A stretch of DNA of 64,000 bases from Leptothermofonsia sichuanensis E412 (GTDB lineage Bacteria > Cyanobacteriota > Cyanobacteriia > Leptolyngbyales > Leptolyngbyaceae). Within the stretch, counting starts at the first letter, position 1, and each line of letters opens with the position of its first letter. The stretch is from contig NZ_CP072600.1 of NCBI RefSeq assembly GCF_019891175.1, positions 62,001-126,000 on the forward strand. The letters are read 5' to 3'. Below are positions 5,781-14,561 of the stretch, in pieces. The translations under genes and the position numbers were made by a program. The notes under the pieces were generated by a model. That model worked only from the letters and a program-made list of their open reading frames with translations, did not search any database and had not been told where the DNA came from.

Positions 5781-8141
<2,361 letters not shown>

Positions 8142-8728: not shown

Positions 8729-10057
8729 CTAAAAAACTTGATTGTGCAGCAGGATGTCGTAGTCTTCACGTTTACGAATCAGCCGATGGCGATGGTTTTC
8801 GAGTAAGACTTCGGCAGGACGGGGACGGTGCAGGAAGTGGGAGGACATGGCGTAGCCATAGGCACCGACATCCAGAATAGCGAGGATATCCCCAATCTGG
8901 AGGGGGGGAAGCTGGCAGTTGCGTCCCAGATAATCACGGGAGTAGGTGGTATTGCCACAGATGTCGGTGGGAGAGGGGGGAGGAGCGAGGGGAAAGGGGG
9001 AAGGAGCAATCCATGCCACAATTTCCCGGTAGCCTCCATGTACGGAGGGCACGGATAGATTAGCTACTGTGGTATCAGTCCCAACGATTTGTTTATGATC
9101 CTGCCATTTGACGGAAACTACCTGAGTGAGGAGTGTGGCACAGCCCGCGATCGCCGCTCTCCCCGGTTCAATCACTAATTCAATCGGTCGATTCAGATGG
9201 TTGAGGTGATCTGTGAGTACTCTGCCAAATTCTGCCCAGTCGAATGCCGCTTTGTGGTGGTGGTAGGGATAACCGAACCCCCCGCCAAAATCCAGGTATT
9301 CCCAGTCGGGAAGGAATTGGCCGATTTCCAGCAGGGTATCGATGACCCGGGTAAAGGCACTGGTGGCGTTAGTTCCGGTACCCCGGTAGAAGTGCAGCCC
9401 AGTGATCTTTAACCCTGCCTGGCGGGCGATCGCCACAGCGTTTGAAAATTCTGCTGGACGTACCCCAATTCGACTGTCACCCGTCAGTTCGGGATGGTTG
9501 AGGCGCAGGCCCAGACGGGGAGAGGAGGGAGGGGAGAGGGGAGAGGAAAAAGGGGTAAGGGGAGAGGAGAGAGGAGAGAGAAGGGAGAGAAAAGGGGAGG
9601 GCTGGGGTACAGGCGGTTGGCGGCTGGATTCTGTGTAGACTTCACAGAAAAGCTGCAACTGAGACAGGCTGTCCAGGTTCAGGGTTCCAATATTCCAGGC
9701 AAGGACCTGCGCCATTTCAGCTCGGTTCAAATTACTGCCGCTGTATACAATCTGCCTGGGATGAAACCCGGCGTGGAGTCCCAGGTAAATGTCGCCAGGG
9801 GTATTGGCGTGCAATCCCCAGCCTGTTTCCCGGAAGATCTGCAACAGAGAAAGATTGCCATTGGTGACACTGGCAAATCGAAACTGAGTCTGGGAATAGG
9901 GAATGGACCGGGTAATGTGGCAGATGGTCTGGCGCAGGCGATCGCCGTCATAGACATAAAGCGGTGATCCATAGGTCGCCAGGAGTTCCTGCGCCAGGTC
10001 AAAGGAAAAGGGCAACCGGGCAGCATTGTATGGTTTTTCCAGAGGTGGTTTCACCAT
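8729..10057 (-). CDS. Fold-type-III PLP decarboxylase homologue lacking the PLP lysine
   Basis: 442 residues, related to diaminopimelate/ornithine decarboxylases (LysA family). The barrel and C-terminal beta domain are recognisable: GGG in DFGGGFGYPY (258-260), EPGR (297-300) and GDILAILDVGAYGYAM. The usual YAxKAN is FASVTN (61-66), so the Schiff-base lysine is Val64. The HxG histidine that stacks on PLP is Tyr224 (HFYRGT), and the catalytic Cys of the CxSxD motif is Thr371 (TYSRD). Phosphate-binding elements remain but catalysis by the family mechanism seems impossible. A Pro/Ser-rich insert at about 145-182 comes from a purine-rich DNA tract. The start overlaps the upstream gene by 7 bp, implying translational coupling. 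The substrate is unknown; it is not a credible lysA. Confidence 0.75.
   Translation of the reverse strand: MVKPPLEKPYNAARLPFSFDLAQELLATYGSPLYVYDGDRLRQTICHITRSIPYSQTQFRFASVTNGNLSLLQIFRETGWGLHANTPGDIYLGLHAGFHPRQIVYSGSNLNRAEMAQVLAWNIGTLNLDSLSQLQLFCEVYTESSRQPPVPQPSPFLSLLSPLSSPLTPFSSPLSPPSSPRLGLRLNHPELTGDSRIGVRPAEFSNAVAIARQAGLKITGLHFYRGTGTNATSAFTRVIDTLLEIGQFLPDWEYLDFGGGFGYPYHHHKAAFDWAEFGRVLTDHLNHLNRPIELVIEPGRAAIAGCATLLTQVVSVKWQDHKQIVGTDTTVANLSVPSVHGGYREIVAWIAPSPFPLAPPPSPTDICGNTTYSRDYLGRNCQLPPLQIGDILAILDVGAYGYAMSSHFLHRPRPAEVLLENHRHRLIRKREDYDILLHNQVF
9515..9610. repeat. Purine-rich low-complexity tract inside a gene
   Basis: GGGAGAGGAGGGAGGGGAGA-like sequence for about 90 bp, on the coding strand pyrimidine-rich and encoding Ser/Pro/Leu repeats. 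Similar tracts occur between genes (for example 48428-48465), and a second smaller coding one is at 8968-9008. It looks like a repeat that expanded in frame. Confidence 0.7.
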
Positions 10058-11874
10058 TGTTCCAGGTTCCTGTGGAGTCGAAGGAAAGGCTGCCCCAGCC
10101 AGGGGGGAAGCCAGAAGGGATGATCCAACGTTGATCTGGAGTGGGACACGCCCAGAACTGCATTCCGCCAGACCTGCCAGATTAACAAAAGCCAGAGGTT
10201 TTCACCCATTCGGCGTCCCTGGAGGGTACCCAGTCCACCCGCGACGATACGAGCTGCAATATCCGGTTGCCAGATGCCTTCCTGCCGTAACCGCTCTGGG
10301 TTCAGCCAGACTCCCAGGTCATGCCACAGTTCATGCAAACACCAGGAGGTGAGGGGAACGCCCATGCCGCGCTTGGTTCGCCAGACAATTTCTGGGGGGA
10401 GCCAGGATTCTACAGCACGCTTGAGTATGTACTTTTCACAGGCTCCCCGGAGGTAAAGTTCCCCGGATAGCTGAAAAGCCAGCGTGGCCAGTGGCAGATC
10501 GCAGAAGGGCGATCGCACCTGCAACCCGTGAGCCTGCCCCAGACTCACCGCACGGGGTTGGATGTTTTGTGCTCCTTTCAACATCAGGGTTGCCCGCCGC
10601 AGACGATGGAGCAGGGAAGTGCTGAAAACAGGCTGGAGTGCCTCGCTGATCCATTCCTGGGGATGCAGTTGGCTGACCTGGGTGTAAATTTCGGGCTGAA
10701 ATATCTGACGCTCGTAGCCCCAAAGACGATGGAAGGTATGGAGATACTGGTCAGCGAAGTCCCTTCCCAGGGGATCTTCCCTGGCGTAAACCCCAGCGGC
10801 AATCAGTGGTTTATTCGTCCACCCGGCAAATAACTGGTCGCCCCCCTCCCCGTTGAAGACCACCTGAACCTCCTGGCAGGCTGCCTGTCCCAAAAGAAAC
10901 AGGGGAATGGTGACCCCATCTCCAAATGGCAGATCCAATGCCTGCACTGTAGGAATCAACGCCCGTCGGACAATGCGGGGAGTAGCATTGACCCTGATCA
11001 GGGGAATGTTGAGAAAGTCTGCAACCGTCTGGGCATAGGAATGTTCTGGAATCAGATCGCCAAAATCCAGGGTATAGGCACGGACCTGGATGCCTGCCTG
11101 CACTAATAGAGCCGCCACGATAGAAGAGTCTAACCCACCGGAAAGGAAGACACCAACGGGTTCATTGCCCAAATCGGCGATTTGCCGGTGAACGGCGTCT
11201 TTCAATCGAGTTTGCAGGTGGTCAATCGCCACAGTTTCATCCTGGATCTGGACAGGCGCTTCCTGCCACTCCAGCGATCGCGCCCAGGCTGGTTCCGTCA
11301 ATCCAGCGGCGTGGCATCTCCAGGTTTGCTCTCCACCCGCTGGAATTGCCCATAGTTGAGCAACTGGTGTCAGGGGCGTGGGGACATAGGAAAAACAACT
11401 GTAGCCATAGACGGCTGGGATACTGATTTGAGGATGCTCCAGCAGGGGCAACAACAAGCGCAGGGAAGAGGCAAACCAGACCACCTGCCCAATCTGGAGC
11501 CAGTAGAGGGGCGATCGCCCAAAGGGTTCTCGTCCCAGACACAAGGACTGTTCACCCAACCGGATCCAGGCATCGGCAGGAAACAGGCTATCCGGTGAGT
11601 CTGGTTTCACCCCGGAGCGAGACAGGGTGAGCAAAACCTCTGTCGAACCAGTGTCAACAGGCACAGTTTCTGGCTTCAGTCCTCCCCAGGCAACCCCCCA
11701 GATCACCCCGGTCTGGGGAAAGGAGCGACACTGTCGGTAGACAGATTGGGTTAGCTCCAGATGACTCAACAGGTGATTCAACCGCTTTTCCGGGTAGCCT
11801 GATTCCCCCAAACCCCAATATCCCAGGAACAATTGCGCTTTCAGGGAAACAATCATTTGCCCCACCCCGACCAT
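10051..11874 (-). CDS. Asparagine-synthetase-like ATP-dependent amide-forming protein without glutaminase Cys
   Basis: About 607 residues. The C-terminal half is a typical asparagine-synthetase domain: the pyrophosphate-loop motif GVFLSGGLDSSIVAALL, then VFNGEGGDQLFAGW, and near the end KYILKRAVESWLPPEIVWRT. This domain adenylates a carboxylate and lets an amine attack it. The N-terminal half still looks like a class II glutamine amidotransferase (CLGREPFGRSPLYW, VWFASSLRLLLPLL), but no candidate start gives the required Cys2: the open frame begins at 11895 (TTG), with ATGs at 11874 and 11856. It therefore should not use glutamine and may use a free amine or form an intramolecular amide, as beta-lactam synthetases do. 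It is sandwiched by overlaps with both neighbours. The start position is uncertain. Confidence 0.75.
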   Translation of the reverse strand: MVGVGQMIVSLKAQLFLGYWGLGESGYPEKRLNHLLSHLELTQSVYRQCRSFPQTGVIWGVAWGGLKPETVPVDTGSTEVLLTLSRSGVKPDSPDSLFPADAWIRLGEQSLCLGREPFGRSPLYWLQIGQVVWFASSLRLLLPLLEHPQISIPAVYGYSCFSYVPTPLTPVAQLWAIPAGGEQTWRCHAAGLTEPAWARSLEWQEAPVQIQDETVAIDHLQTRLKDAVHRQIADLGNEPVGVFLSGGLDSSIVAALLVQAGIQVRAYTLDFGDLIPEHSYAQTVADFLNIPLIRVNATPRIVRRALIPTVQALDLPFGDGVTIPLFLLGQAACQEVQVVFNGEGGDQLFAGWTNKPLIAAGVYAREDPLGRDFADQYLHTFHRLWGYERQIFQPEIYTQVSQLHPQEWISEALQPVFSTSLLHRLRRATLMLKGAQNIQPRAVSLGQAHGLQVRSPFCDLPLATLAFQLSGELYLRGACEKYILKRAVESWLPPEIVWRTKRGMGVPLTSWCLHELWHDLGVWLNPERLRQEGIWQPDIAARIVAGGLGTLQGRRMGENLWLLLIWQVWRNAVLGVSHSRSTLDHPFWLPPWLGQPFLRLHRNLEQW

Positions 11875-11881
11875 CGCCGGA

Positions 11882-12499
11882 CTACTTGACTTCAAAGGTG
11901 GTTTCGCTGATTGGGCGATCGCCGAGAAACATCCTTACCGTCCAGGTTCCAGCCGGTGCCGCAGAATCAATTGTATGTTTGCAGCGGGTATTCCAGACCG
12001 ATGTGGTAATTTCCTGAGTCTGGTAGCGGTTCTGATGCATCAACTGGTCCCCCAGTGCCGTCCAGTTGCAGGAAAGCCCCAGTTTCTTGCCGATGGGTGC
12101 ATTCTGCAACGTCACATAGTATGCCACCTCCGCCGGACGGGTTACAGTCGTCAGACTGCCACCGGGATTCTGTGCCAGGGTAATCCGCCCCTGCTGGGCA
12201 GAGACATTGGCGAGCCTCTGCTGACTCTGGTGTGACCAGAAAGCCCCCGCTGCGATCGTGATAATCAGAGCCGCCACCATCCCGATGGTGAGGCGGCGGC
12301 GGCGGCGCTGTTGAGTTGCCAGAACTTCCCGCCGCTTTACCTGGAGGATGGCTTCATCCAGCAATTCAAGCGGCAGGTTAAGCTCCTGCAAAATTTGCTC
12401 CACCTGTTGACGGTCCACCTCATTCTGCTGGCGTTGGGCAAGCCGCTCCACTTCACCAACAATTTGAGTCAATTGCTCCTGAGTCAGTCGTTCTGTCAT
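11882..12499 (-). CDS. Conserved single-span membrane protein, first gene of the 12.5-8.7 kb operon
   Basis: 205 residues. An N-terminal cytoplasmic helical part (LTQEQLTQIVGEVERLAQRQ to about residue 80) ends in a basic QQRRRRR stretch, then one membrane span (near 90-108, LTIGMVAALIITIAAGAFW). The outer or lumenal C-terminal domain contains two cysteines in LSCNW and NTRCKH that could form a disulfide. The C-terminal part ending FLGDRPISETTFEVK resembles a beta-sandwich domain seen in cyanobacterial hypothetical proteins. Function unknown. Its stop lies beyond the first possible start of the next gene, so the three genes are probably one transcript. Confidence 0.65.
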   Translation of the reverse strand: MTERLTQEQLTQIVGEVERLAQRQQNEVDRQQVEQILQELNLPLELLDEAILQVKRREVLATQQRRRRRLTIGMVAALIITIAAGAFWSHQSQQRLANVSAQQGRITLAQNPGGSLTTVTRPAEVAYYVTLQNAPIGKKLGLSCNWTALGDQLMHQNRYQTQEITTSVWNTRCKHTIDSAAPAGTWTVRMFLGDRPISETTFEVK

Positions 12500-12733: not shown

Positions 12734-14233
12734 TTAGCTCTTGCCGGGTGGGGGAATCGTCACATCAATAGCCGTAACGGTCGCATTGGGGGTCAAACTG
12801 GTCAGGGGGGGAGTAATTGCCTGCTCGTTGCCAACTACCAGAATGACCATATTTTCTGGCTTCAAATAGGTTTGAGCAACCCGCTGCACGTCGGCAATTG
12901 TCGTCGCTTCTACCCCTCGCTGGTAACGGAAGATAAAATCTCTGGGATAGCCAAAATATTCATAGCGCAACAGGCGAACGAGTGTCTGACTGGGACTTTG
13001 AAAGTTGAAAATGAAGGAATTGAGCACGGAGTCTTTAGCATATTTTAATTCTGCCTCTGAAATGGGAGCCGTGCGAATGCGCTCAATCTCTGTCAGCAGG
13101 CTCTTGATCAGCGGAACGGTGGCATCAGAACGGGTCTGCCCGCCAGCAGTAAACAAACCAGGGTAGTCATAGCGTGGATTCCACACGCCATACACCGAAT
13201 AGGCCAGCCCCTGGCGCGATCGCACTTCATTAAACAATCGACCGCCAAAACCGTTGAGCACTCCATTCATCACAGACAGTGCCGGGTAGTCCGGGGTGTT
13301 CATTACCCCACCCAGATGCCCAATCTGAATGCTGCTTTGAGTCAGTTGCGGCTGATTGACAAAAAATACACCCCCCATTTTCGCCTGGCTGACCGATGGC
13401 AAAGGTGCCCCCTGAACTGCTTCTGCCGCTAGTTGCCAACGGCCAAATTTAGCCTCGACCTGCTTTCGCATCCTCTGACTGTCAAAATCCCCCACAATGC
13501 CCAGCATCACATTACCCGGAGCATAGTACTGGCGATAGAAATTCACTACATCATTGCGGGAAATGTTATCGAGAGTGGTGTACTCCACGGTGCGGGCATA
13601 GGGACTATCCTCACCATAGATCAACTTACGAAATTCGCGGCTGGCAATCCCATTGGGGTCATCATTGCGACGGGCAATTCCTCCCCGGATCTGGGTTTTT
13701 GCCAGGTCAATTTTATCCTGGGGAAATGCTGGCTCCTGAATTATTTCAGCAAACAGGTCAAACACTTCTTCTAGGTCTTCGCTGAGGGCATTAAAGCTGG
13801 CACTTCCAGAAACCTCCCCGACACTGGTTTCAATCGAGGCAGCCCGTTGCTCCAGGAACTCGTTAATTTCGTCGCCCGAATGGTGCTCTGTCCCCCCAGA
13901 TCGCATCACGGTACCCATAATGCTTGCCAGCCCGACTTTTTCCGCTGGTTCAAAGCGATCGCCCGTGCGAATCAGTGCCGTGCCCCCGACCAGGGGCAGT
14001 TCATGGTCTTCCATCAGGTACACAACCATCCCATTGGCAAGCTGAAACCGGGTGTATTCTGGCACTTTCACTTCCGGCAGGGGGGGAAAGGTCAGATCGG
14101 TATAGTGTTTGGGAGTATCGCTGGAAAAGGCCGGGCGAATCGCCAGAAATAGCAGAATTAACGGGATAACAAGGAAGCAGAAAACGGTGACCAAAATTTT
14201 TACGGTCTGCGTTCTACGGTTGGGCAATTGCAT
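12734..14233 (-). CDS. M16 (insulinase/pitrilysin) family protein lacking the zinc motif
   Basis: 499 residues with an N-terminal membrane anchor (ILVTVFCFLVIPLILLFLAI) and two M16 domains outside the cytoplasm. In active M16 peptidases the first domain has HxxEH after a GLA-type lead-in; here the position reads GLASIMGTVMRSGGTEH, so both histidines and the glutamate are missing. The second domain keeps the Arg/Tyr-type segment GRLFNEVRSRQGLAYSVYGV. This pattern is that of the non-catalytic partner of a heterodimeric M16B peptidase, but no active partner gene adjoins. The start is set at 14233 (MQLPNRRTQTV) behind TGGAGAA; the open frame to 14332 is unlikely to be coding. Confidence 0.8.
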   Translation of the reverse strand: MQLPNRRTQTVKILVTVFCFLVIPLILLFLAIRPAFSSDTPKHYTDLTFPPLPEVKVPEYTRFQLANGMVVYLMEDHELPLVGGTALIRTGDRFEPAEKVGLASIMGTVMRSGGTEHHSGDEINEFLEQRAASIETSVGEVSGSASFNALSEDLEEVFDLFAEIIQEPAFPQDKIDLAKTQIRGGIARRNDDPNGIASREFRKLIYGEDSPYARTVEYTTLDNISRNDVVNFYRQYYAPGNVMLGIVGDFDSQRMRKQVEAKFGRWQLAAEAVQGAPLPSVSQAKMGGVFFVNQPQLTQSSIQIGHLGGVMNTPDYPALSVMNGVLNGFGGRLFNEVRSRQGLAYSVYGVWNPRYDYPGLFTAGGQTRSDATVPLIKSLLTEIERIRTAPISEAELKYAKDSVLNSFIFNFQSPSQTLVRLLRYEYFGYPRDFIFRYQRGVEATTIADVQRVAQTYLKPENMVILVVGNEQAITPPLTSLTPNATVTAIDVTIPPPGKS

Positions 14234-14561
14234 CTGGGTTCTCCAGCCAGTGAGAATCAACGTTAGGTTACAACATCTCCCCCCATCATATGTGCGATCG
14301 CCATTAAAGTTAGTCCCAGTTAGAAGGCTCAAAACCTTGTCTCATCCTTGCTCCCCTATTCTCTATCGCCTGCCCCCAGCCATCGCGATTGCTTCATTTC
14401 TTCTCATCCATTTTGGAATAAATTCATCACGCCAGTCAGCTACGGAAATCGCGTGTATTTTTTTGAAGTTAAGTAAAAAAACACACAGTTCTGTATCCAC
14501 ACATTGCTACCTGGGAAATATAGCCACAGTTAGAGTTGCTGGAAAATTCCAGTTGAATATC
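14234..14561. other. Divergent promoter region
   Basis: 328 bp between the divergent M16 and pentapeptide-repeat genes. An open plus-strand frame runs through from 14109 but has no protein-like composition. No convincing promoter hexamers or operator were picked out. Confidence 0.5.

Follow-up and report, generated by a model that had tools for sequence, protein, structure and literature searches.

Beta-lactam synthetase and the carbapenam synthetase CarA are AsnB-family enzymes without a working glutaminase: each forms an acyl-AMP, which is then attacked by an amine. Antizyme inhibitor, a relative of the fold-III decarboxylases, has lost catalysis and become a binding protein in eukaryotic polyamine regulation. 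The published account of McjC, an AsnB-type lasso cyclase in which the glutaminase domain is absent, describes formation of an acyl-AMP on a peptide carboxylate (PMC4979651). Two other reports (PMC13279940, PMC11996544) describe Cap9, a PP-loop enzyme of type IV CBASS, as conjugating a nucleobase to a protein N-terminal Gly, Cap10 as a transglycosylase-family enzyme remodeled to bind the Cap9 product, and QatB as having an unstructured N terminus with an essential Gly motif.

The genes described here were traced from the window, meaning the whole 64,000-nucleotide stretch that was analyzed (C1:62001-126000, in a genome of one 6.43-Mb contig whose named relatives are cyanobacteria). The names Asn1, AsnB2, Dec, Top, and TM were coined in the present analysis. 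Three of the genes lie together in the window and two lie elsewhere in the same genome:

TM, window 12499-11882, minus strand: 205 aa, with a helical cytosolic N-terminal part, a single span, and an external Ig-like-looking domain that carries Cys144 and Cys173.
Asn1, window 11895-10051, minus strand: 614 aa when read from TTG; an asparagine-synthetase-like ATP-dependent ligase whose glutaminase domain is dead and variable.
Dec, window 10057-8729, minus strand: 442 aa; a LysA-like barrel with the Schiff-base Lys changed to Val, His to Tyr, and the catalytic Cys to Thr, and with the PLP-phosphate-site motifs retained.
Top, C1:3113964-3115268, minus strand: a Phe-Gly-ending membrane protein encoded away from the trio.
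AsnB2, about C1:2160454-2162223, plus strand: a second synthetase, also away from the trio.

The first-pass annotation of this DNA had proposed the three window genes as one overlapping unit. The three minus-strand ORFs are indeed there, and the 7-base overlap of Asn1 with Dec (ATGGTGA) can be read in the sequence. The 14-base overlap of TM with Asn1 is doubtful, since it needs the unlikely TTG start at 11895, and several Asn1 relatives have an MGQ/MGK... N terminus that matches GTG 11865 or ATG 11874; judged by these relatives, one of the latter two codons is the likely start. The gene neighborhood comparison that the annotation had called for found TM, Asn1, and Dec on one strand and in this order in 33 of 39 Asn1 loci, and the arrangement is therefore more than chance. 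Next upstream of TM lies an M16-type peptidase gene (window 12734-14332) with a YfmF-like resemblance below the cut-off, and such a gene is close to TM in 4 clustered loci only. In the window, the place downstream of Dec that Top takes in most relatives is occupied by a katG-like catalase-peroxidase gene (5781-8120), named by sequence only.

How far does the unit extend beyond these three genes? Clustering of the ORFs of 61 loci placed Top directly after Dec and the second synthetase, AsnB2, convergent to Top. Dec is followed by Top in 34 of 37 Dec loci, and in 19 of those 34 the order TM-Asn1-Dec-Top with a convergent AsnB2 is complete. In genome counts that come from related genomes (29 to 30 of 160 genera) and are not independent, Dec was found in 48 of 388 cyanobacterial genomes (E up to 1e-100), and Asn1 and Top were found in the same 48. 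The Asn1 copies of G014 and G299 are fragments, a 49th listed genome (G260) has AsnB2 only, and G327 adds a 46-residue Top fragment. AsnB2 (at least 740 bits) is present in 47 of the 48 system genomes, being missing in G330, and in G260 alone among 32 other genomes, a hand-picked, nonrandom set that included G260 since its AsnB2 was already known. Top is distant from the trio in G000 and G037, as is Dec from Asn1 in G017 and G380, and linkage alone is therefore insufficient to explain the co-occurrence. Gloeothece verrucosa PCC 7822 carries the whole five-gene module on its plasmid Cy782202, where the annotations read hypothetical protein, asparagine synthetase B family, decarboxylase, hypothetical protein, and asparagine synthase-related. 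A system of five proteins (TM, Asn1, Dec, Top, and AsnB2) to which the trio belongs is thus well supported. The unit is conserved and, as the annotation had suspected, apparently undescribed; the annotation had taken it for a three-protein one, with which Top and AsnB2 in fact co-occur almost perfectly.

Other clusters of neighbors reached at most 9 of the 61 loci. Among the candidates for membership that were set aside, the M16 peptidase, TrkA-type, PstS-like, FtsH-like, and HPPD genes are lineage-specific neighbors, the largest nonsystem cluster is a mixture of ABC proteins, and nothing related to the leucine carboxyl methyltransferase that adjoins the Gloeothece plasmid copy of AsnB2 occurs in the other loci. 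Two loci have unusual structures: in G330 (L175:6103-7959), shortened versions of Asn1 and Dec are joined in a single 618-aa frame, and in G231 (L178:10362-17000), a 2,212-aa ORF stands between Asn1 and TM. G330 has neither AsnB2 nor TM, yet its Top retains the FG tail. Open-access text contained no description of the five-gene combination or of the five Gloeothece accessions, which does not prove absence in print.

Both synthetases are recognizable members of their family, with Pfam Asn_synthase (PF00733) scores of 196.3 bits for Asn1, in which GATase_7 is under its cut-off, and 239 bits for AsnB2. Neither reached the models for glutamine-dependent asparagine synthetase (TIGR01536, cut-off 267.1; Asn1, 157.2; AsnB2 of the present genome, 236.3) or lasso peptide cyclase (NF033535, cut-off 525 bits; 54.5 and 147 bits, respectively), nor did Asn1 reach that for the XrtA/PEP-CTERM amidotransferase (TIGR03108, 153.1 bits versus 816.9). 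The nearest solved relatives of Asn1 score low (7ylz at 87 bits, then AsnB, CarA, Cap9, and beta-lactam synthetase), and the beta-lactam synthetase structure 1jgt matches the ligases weakly (28.4 and 69.5 bits in two PDB searches).

The window synthetase had been described as keeping its ATP site and lacking the glutaminase Cys2 at every start, and both statements extend to its relatives. All 15 aligned Asn1 proteins contain SGG[L/I]DSS. No Asn1 candidate start provides Cys2, the sole upstream Cys codon (11931) having no start before it, and MC is absent from the first 150 residues of all 20 Asn1 proteins. Of the two outcomes that the annotation had named as refuting its idea, a trio not conserved in other genomes and an N-terminal Cys at another start, neither is observed. 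An MCG N terminus occurs in 0 of 20 Asn1 and 0 of 29 AsnB2 proteins; a single AsnB2 copy (L179) begins MCF, within a variable extension. Among the other AsnB-type proteins compared, 17 of 18 keep MCG, the XrtA enzyme being one of them. The PP-loop motif of AsnB2 (SGGxDSS) is present in 16 of 16 aligned copies. Lys508 in the KRGM segment is invariant in 15 of 15 aligned Asn1 proteins, and we take it to be the catalytic Lys of AsnB from alignment to PDB asparagine synthetases together with what is known of AsnB; this Lys and the PP-loop are retained in both Asn1 and AsnB2. By these residues, both ligases appear to have retained carboxylate activation and would be incapable of obtaining ammonia from glutamine.

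In a ligase tree of 39 rows, with 10 of the 20 Asn1 and 10 of the 29 AsnB2 proteins included, Asn1, AsnB2, and a Streptomyces relative are separated from the 18 other AsnB-type proteins (branch, 100/99), and the Streptomyces ligase groups with cyanobacterial AsnB2 as its sister (100/99). Given this sampling and a long stem for Asn1 (1.77), the exact order near the tree root is uncertain. The simplest reading of these sequences is that a single loss of the glutaminase was followed by a duplication.

The best family of Dec is LysA (TIGR01048, 241.2 bits, not reaching the cut-off of 297.9); its score against the XrtA/PEP-CTERM decarboxylase model, TIGR03099, was 94.9 bits, short of the cut-off of 478.45. 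Compared with the LysA proteins of Aquifex and of the same genome, Dec has Val in place of Lys, YRGT in place of HIGS, and T-Y-S-R-D in place of C-E-S-G-D, while the GGGxG, EPGR, and GAY segments are retained. The catalytic Lys is absent, in keeping with the inactive-looking barrel reported earlier: all 19 aligned Dec copies have Val and Thr in place of the PLP-binding Lys and catalytic Cys that a diaminopimelate decarboxylase requires. Dec is accordingly predicted to be unable to form the internal aldimine for PLP chemistry. The replacement residues are themselves conserved in these 19 copies, which argues that Dec is a constrained protein and not a decaying one. Four hits with 26% identity to Dec (L038-L041) keep both Lys and Cys, and a true LysA (499 bits), with its Lys present, is encoded elsewhere in the present genome. 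Among solved structures, 2p3e is a sequence relative (E 1.7e-58), and Foldseek with a partial model of Dec (mean pLDDT 56.5) finds diaminopimelate decarboxylases first (1knw, E 6e-16). Pro/Ser/Leu-rich low-complexity inserts occur at two loop positions of Dec (window 9510-9620 and about 8960-9010), and these differ greatly in length among relatives.

Top combines a Zn ribbon, predicted membrane spans, a degenerate Toprim-like domain, and a flexible tail. Its N-terminal CxxC...CxxC is invariant (18/18). One to four spans are predicted, an even number in 28 of 42 proteins, and we infer that the tail is likely cytosolic. Its weak Pfam matches are to the Toprim of topoisomerase VI A/Spo11 (20.5 and 18.2 bits versus a cut-off of 24.1), with the Toprim Glu and the second Asp of DxD appearing to be replaced. 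A PDB sequence search with Top gave no match up to E 1, and the structural model was unusable (mean pLDDT 42.9).

The most constrained feature of Top is its last two residues. FG stands at the C terminus in 42 of 42 Top cluster members, and a profile search found -FG at the stop in 52 of 52 distinct complete cyanobacterial C termini, a count that excludes 22 ends truncated by the end of a sequence stretch and damaged copies such as that of G299. Under a stricter motif filter, 50 of 50 end in FG; in these, S occupies position -3 in 42, an acidic residue (E or D) stands at position -4 in 45, with Q, A, or G there in the other 5, and Y or F takes position -7 in 44, whereas F and G are invariant. 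The preceding Gly/Ser/Asp-rich linker varies in length and letters. As background, about 9 non-Top ORFs end in FG among 3,330 from the same loci. Where Top occurs in tandem copies (one to three), the tail is retained. In the present genome, [DE]SFG-stop occurs at 7 sites, of which only that of Top ends an ORF of >30 aa. The own-genome tail pattern, which finds only tails with D/E at -4, gave 27 sites versus 28 in a reversed control; 15 of the 27 were read, and 7 of the remainder end in TGG. Phage records gave no match to Top. The C-terminal Gly of Top is the one invariant, exposed carboxylate of the system.

Does AsnB2 always travel with such a tail? In G260, AsnB2 is present while Top, Asn1, and Dec are all absent, and at the 37 of 40 pattern sites checked there, no ORF of at least 100 aa ends in D/E-x-FG; of the other three sites, two end in TGG and one was unread. 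This orphan AsnB2 is a result against strict AsnB2-tail coupling. A divergent version of the system is found on plasmid NZ_CP108509.1 of Streptomyces sp. NBC_01237 (L269:6946-12624), in the order three tandem Top-like ORFs, a 179-aa ORF, and an AsnB2 relative (42% identity, 410 bits). The 22 kb that were read there showed nothing related to Dec or TM. The three Top-like proteins do not end in FG. The 179-aa ORF, directly before the AsnB2 relative, has one predicted span, and its Gly/Ser/Asp-rich tail closes with SDDDFG. It overlaps an antisense ORF of equal GC3 (0.93 versus 0.91) in a record without annotation, and it is probably, not certainly, real; with one span only, it may carry its tail on the outer side. 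If it is real, tail and ligase travel together even when the tail is on another protein. Outside cyanobacteria, a Dec relative with 30% identity, annotated as alanine racemase, is encoded on a Mesorhizobium huakuii plasmid (L268:5962-7155). It has Met in place of Lys and a GNSTYSRD motif, and Lys-less barrels with this motif therefore exist outside the phylum. The radical SAM, TldD-related metallopeptidase, and DUF3050 genes next to it may make this another cluster for peptide modification.

TM had been described as a one-span membrane protein with two cysteines, and this description fits the family: 44 of 45 cluster members have one predicted span each, and Cys144 and Cys173, its only two Cys residues, are invariant in 12 of 12. 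Its only family resemblance is a weak one to DUF3859. TM is present in 47 of the 48 system genomes, G330 being the exception, and in 8 further genomes (5 full-length, 1 partial, 1 broken, and 1 weak). The full-length copies in G030, G029, G018, G019, and G024 (L180-L184) are kept without Asn1, Dec, or Top, and TM may therefore have a function of its own outside the system. Counted together, six genomes, five of them with a full-length copy, show that TM can persist when the rest is missing.

The invariant end of the membrane partner suggests that the ligases modify a protein end rather than make asparagine. By analogy with McjC and with Cap9/Cap10, we propose that the glutaminase-dead ligases adenylate the -FG carboxylate of Top and join an amine to it, with Dec as a remodeled partner, and put the probability of this reading at roughly 0.45. 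AsnB2 and/or Asn1 would bind the flexible tail and adenylate its C-terminal Gly carboxylate, and the activated tail would then be joined to a specific amine, which would leave Top amide-capped or conjugated. The altered pocket of Dec would hold the amine or the finished tail, and TM would couple the complex to the outside. The sequences show the composition of the system, its conservation, and the pattern of lost and kept residues; that the tail is the substrate, which ligase acts, what the amine would be, and the parts played by TM and the Toprim-like domain are inferred. The orphan AsnB2 of G260, the tail that Top keeps in G330 although AsnB2 and TM are missing there, the Streptomyces Top-like proteins that lack the FG end, and the TM copies that persist alone count against the proposal. 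A more specific form, in which AsnB2 or Asn1 joins the amine to the Phe-Gly end while the Lys-less LysA barrel, with GGGFG, EPGR, and Tyr kept, holds the amine or tail, is unlikely to be right; a ligand of the PLP site, such as a diamino acid or pyridoxamine phosphate, would be the natural candidate for the amine. The annotation's suggestion of ligation by a Cys-less synthetase stands as far as a glutaminase-dead ligase is concerned, and the invariant -FG favors a protein terminus as the substrate at least as much as a free small molecule.

A short invariant C-terminal motif after a flexible linker could equally be a substrate or a linear motif for binding. The tail might then be an unmodified docking or assembly motif that recruits the soluble proteins to the membrane, for example, by entering the pocket of Asn1/AsnB2 or of Dec, with the ligases acting elsewhere or the whole being a regulatory assembly of dead enzymes. 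Catalytic residues have been lost in Dec, in the Toprim-like domain, and in both glutaminase domains, as such an assembly would have it; the ATP site and catalytic Lys kept in both ligases make mere scaffolds unlikely, and we consider docking alone rather doubtful. In a small-molecule pathway of the kind that the annotation had considered, a free metabolite would be turned into an amide or lactam by Asn1 and AsnB2, Dec would hold an amino acid, and Top and TM would act in transport or sensing. Two AsnB relatives with a dead glutaminase, CarA and beta-lactam synthetase, belong to the nearest solved structures, and the LysA relative BtrK acts in butirosin biosynthesis, both of which agree with this, but the 61 clustered loci have no conserved extra biosynthetic genes or transporters, and the invariant protein terminus is left unexplained; a small-molecule product is distinctly unlikely.

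The tail could also be a precursor whose end becomes a released signal after being cut off or cross-linked, for instance, by a lasso-like bond between Asp/Glu at -4 and an amine. In favor of such RiPP-like processing are the presence of one to three tail-bearing copies in tandem, D/E at -4 in 45 of 50 tails, and the radical SAM and TldD-related genes adjoining the Lys-less Dec relative in Mesorhizobium. It is nonetheless improbable: Q, A, or G takes the -4 position in 5 of 50 tails while F and G are invariant, the clustered cyanobacterial loci (61) have no conserved peptidase gene, and Top itself is large and membrane-bound. It is very hard to credit that the genes are a known defense system or a divergent XrtA/PEP-CTERM pair for exopolysaccharide, with Dec as the decarboxylase and Asn1 as the amidotransferase. 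The patchy distribution of the module and its plasmid location in Gloeothece PCC 7822 are in favor, and Asn1 and Dec do match TIGR03108 (153 bits) and TIGR03099 (95 bits), but these scores are far under the cut-offs (816.9 and 478.5), the compared XrtA enzyme retains MCG, and PADLOC, run on the five proteins, returned one weak QueC match (21.5 bits).

Should the proposed C-terminal modification of Top hold, an AsnB-type class would join the few known routes that activate a protein C terminus outside the E1/ubiquitin-like world, and -FG would be a conserved, readable tag through which mass spectrometry could address the question directly. Even without conjugation, a five-protein set stays together in 47 to 48 of 388 cyanobacterial genomes though its genes can be scattered over a chromosome; it is a sizeable unassigned piece of cyanobacterial biology, for which current annotation offers no more than asparagine synthase, decarboxylase, and hypothetical protein.

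Compared with lasso systems, the present loci have no lasso precursor or peptidase, and the NF033535 scores are below the cut-off. LysA and BtrK are relatives of Dec in sequence and fold, from which it differs by the changes of Lys to Val, HIGS to YRGT, and Cys-Glu to Thr-Tyr. Antizyme inhibitor is among the Dec matches in the solved-structure search and, unlike Dec, has no AsnB partner. Topoisomerase VI A/Spo11 shares a weak Toprim match with Top, in which the acidic residues appear replaced. A close parallel lies in type IV CBASS Cap9/Cap10 with CdnD and in QatC/QatB, where a PP-loop ATPase partners a protein with an unstructured terminal segment and a terminal Gly, as in the present system. 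CBASS adds an enzyme-family protein remodeled to bind the modified terminus, a part that Dec may play in the present system. The CBASS and Qat ligases are of the QueC family and act at the N terminus, whereas the present ligases are of the AsnB family with a C-terminal -FG, and no nucleotidyltransferase was seen. C-terminal conjugation of Top would mirror CBASS/Qat deazaguanylation, with the opposite protein terminus as its target and an unrelated branch of ligases, a relation of analogy and not of membership. The mechanism proposed here resembles known terminal-modification systems.
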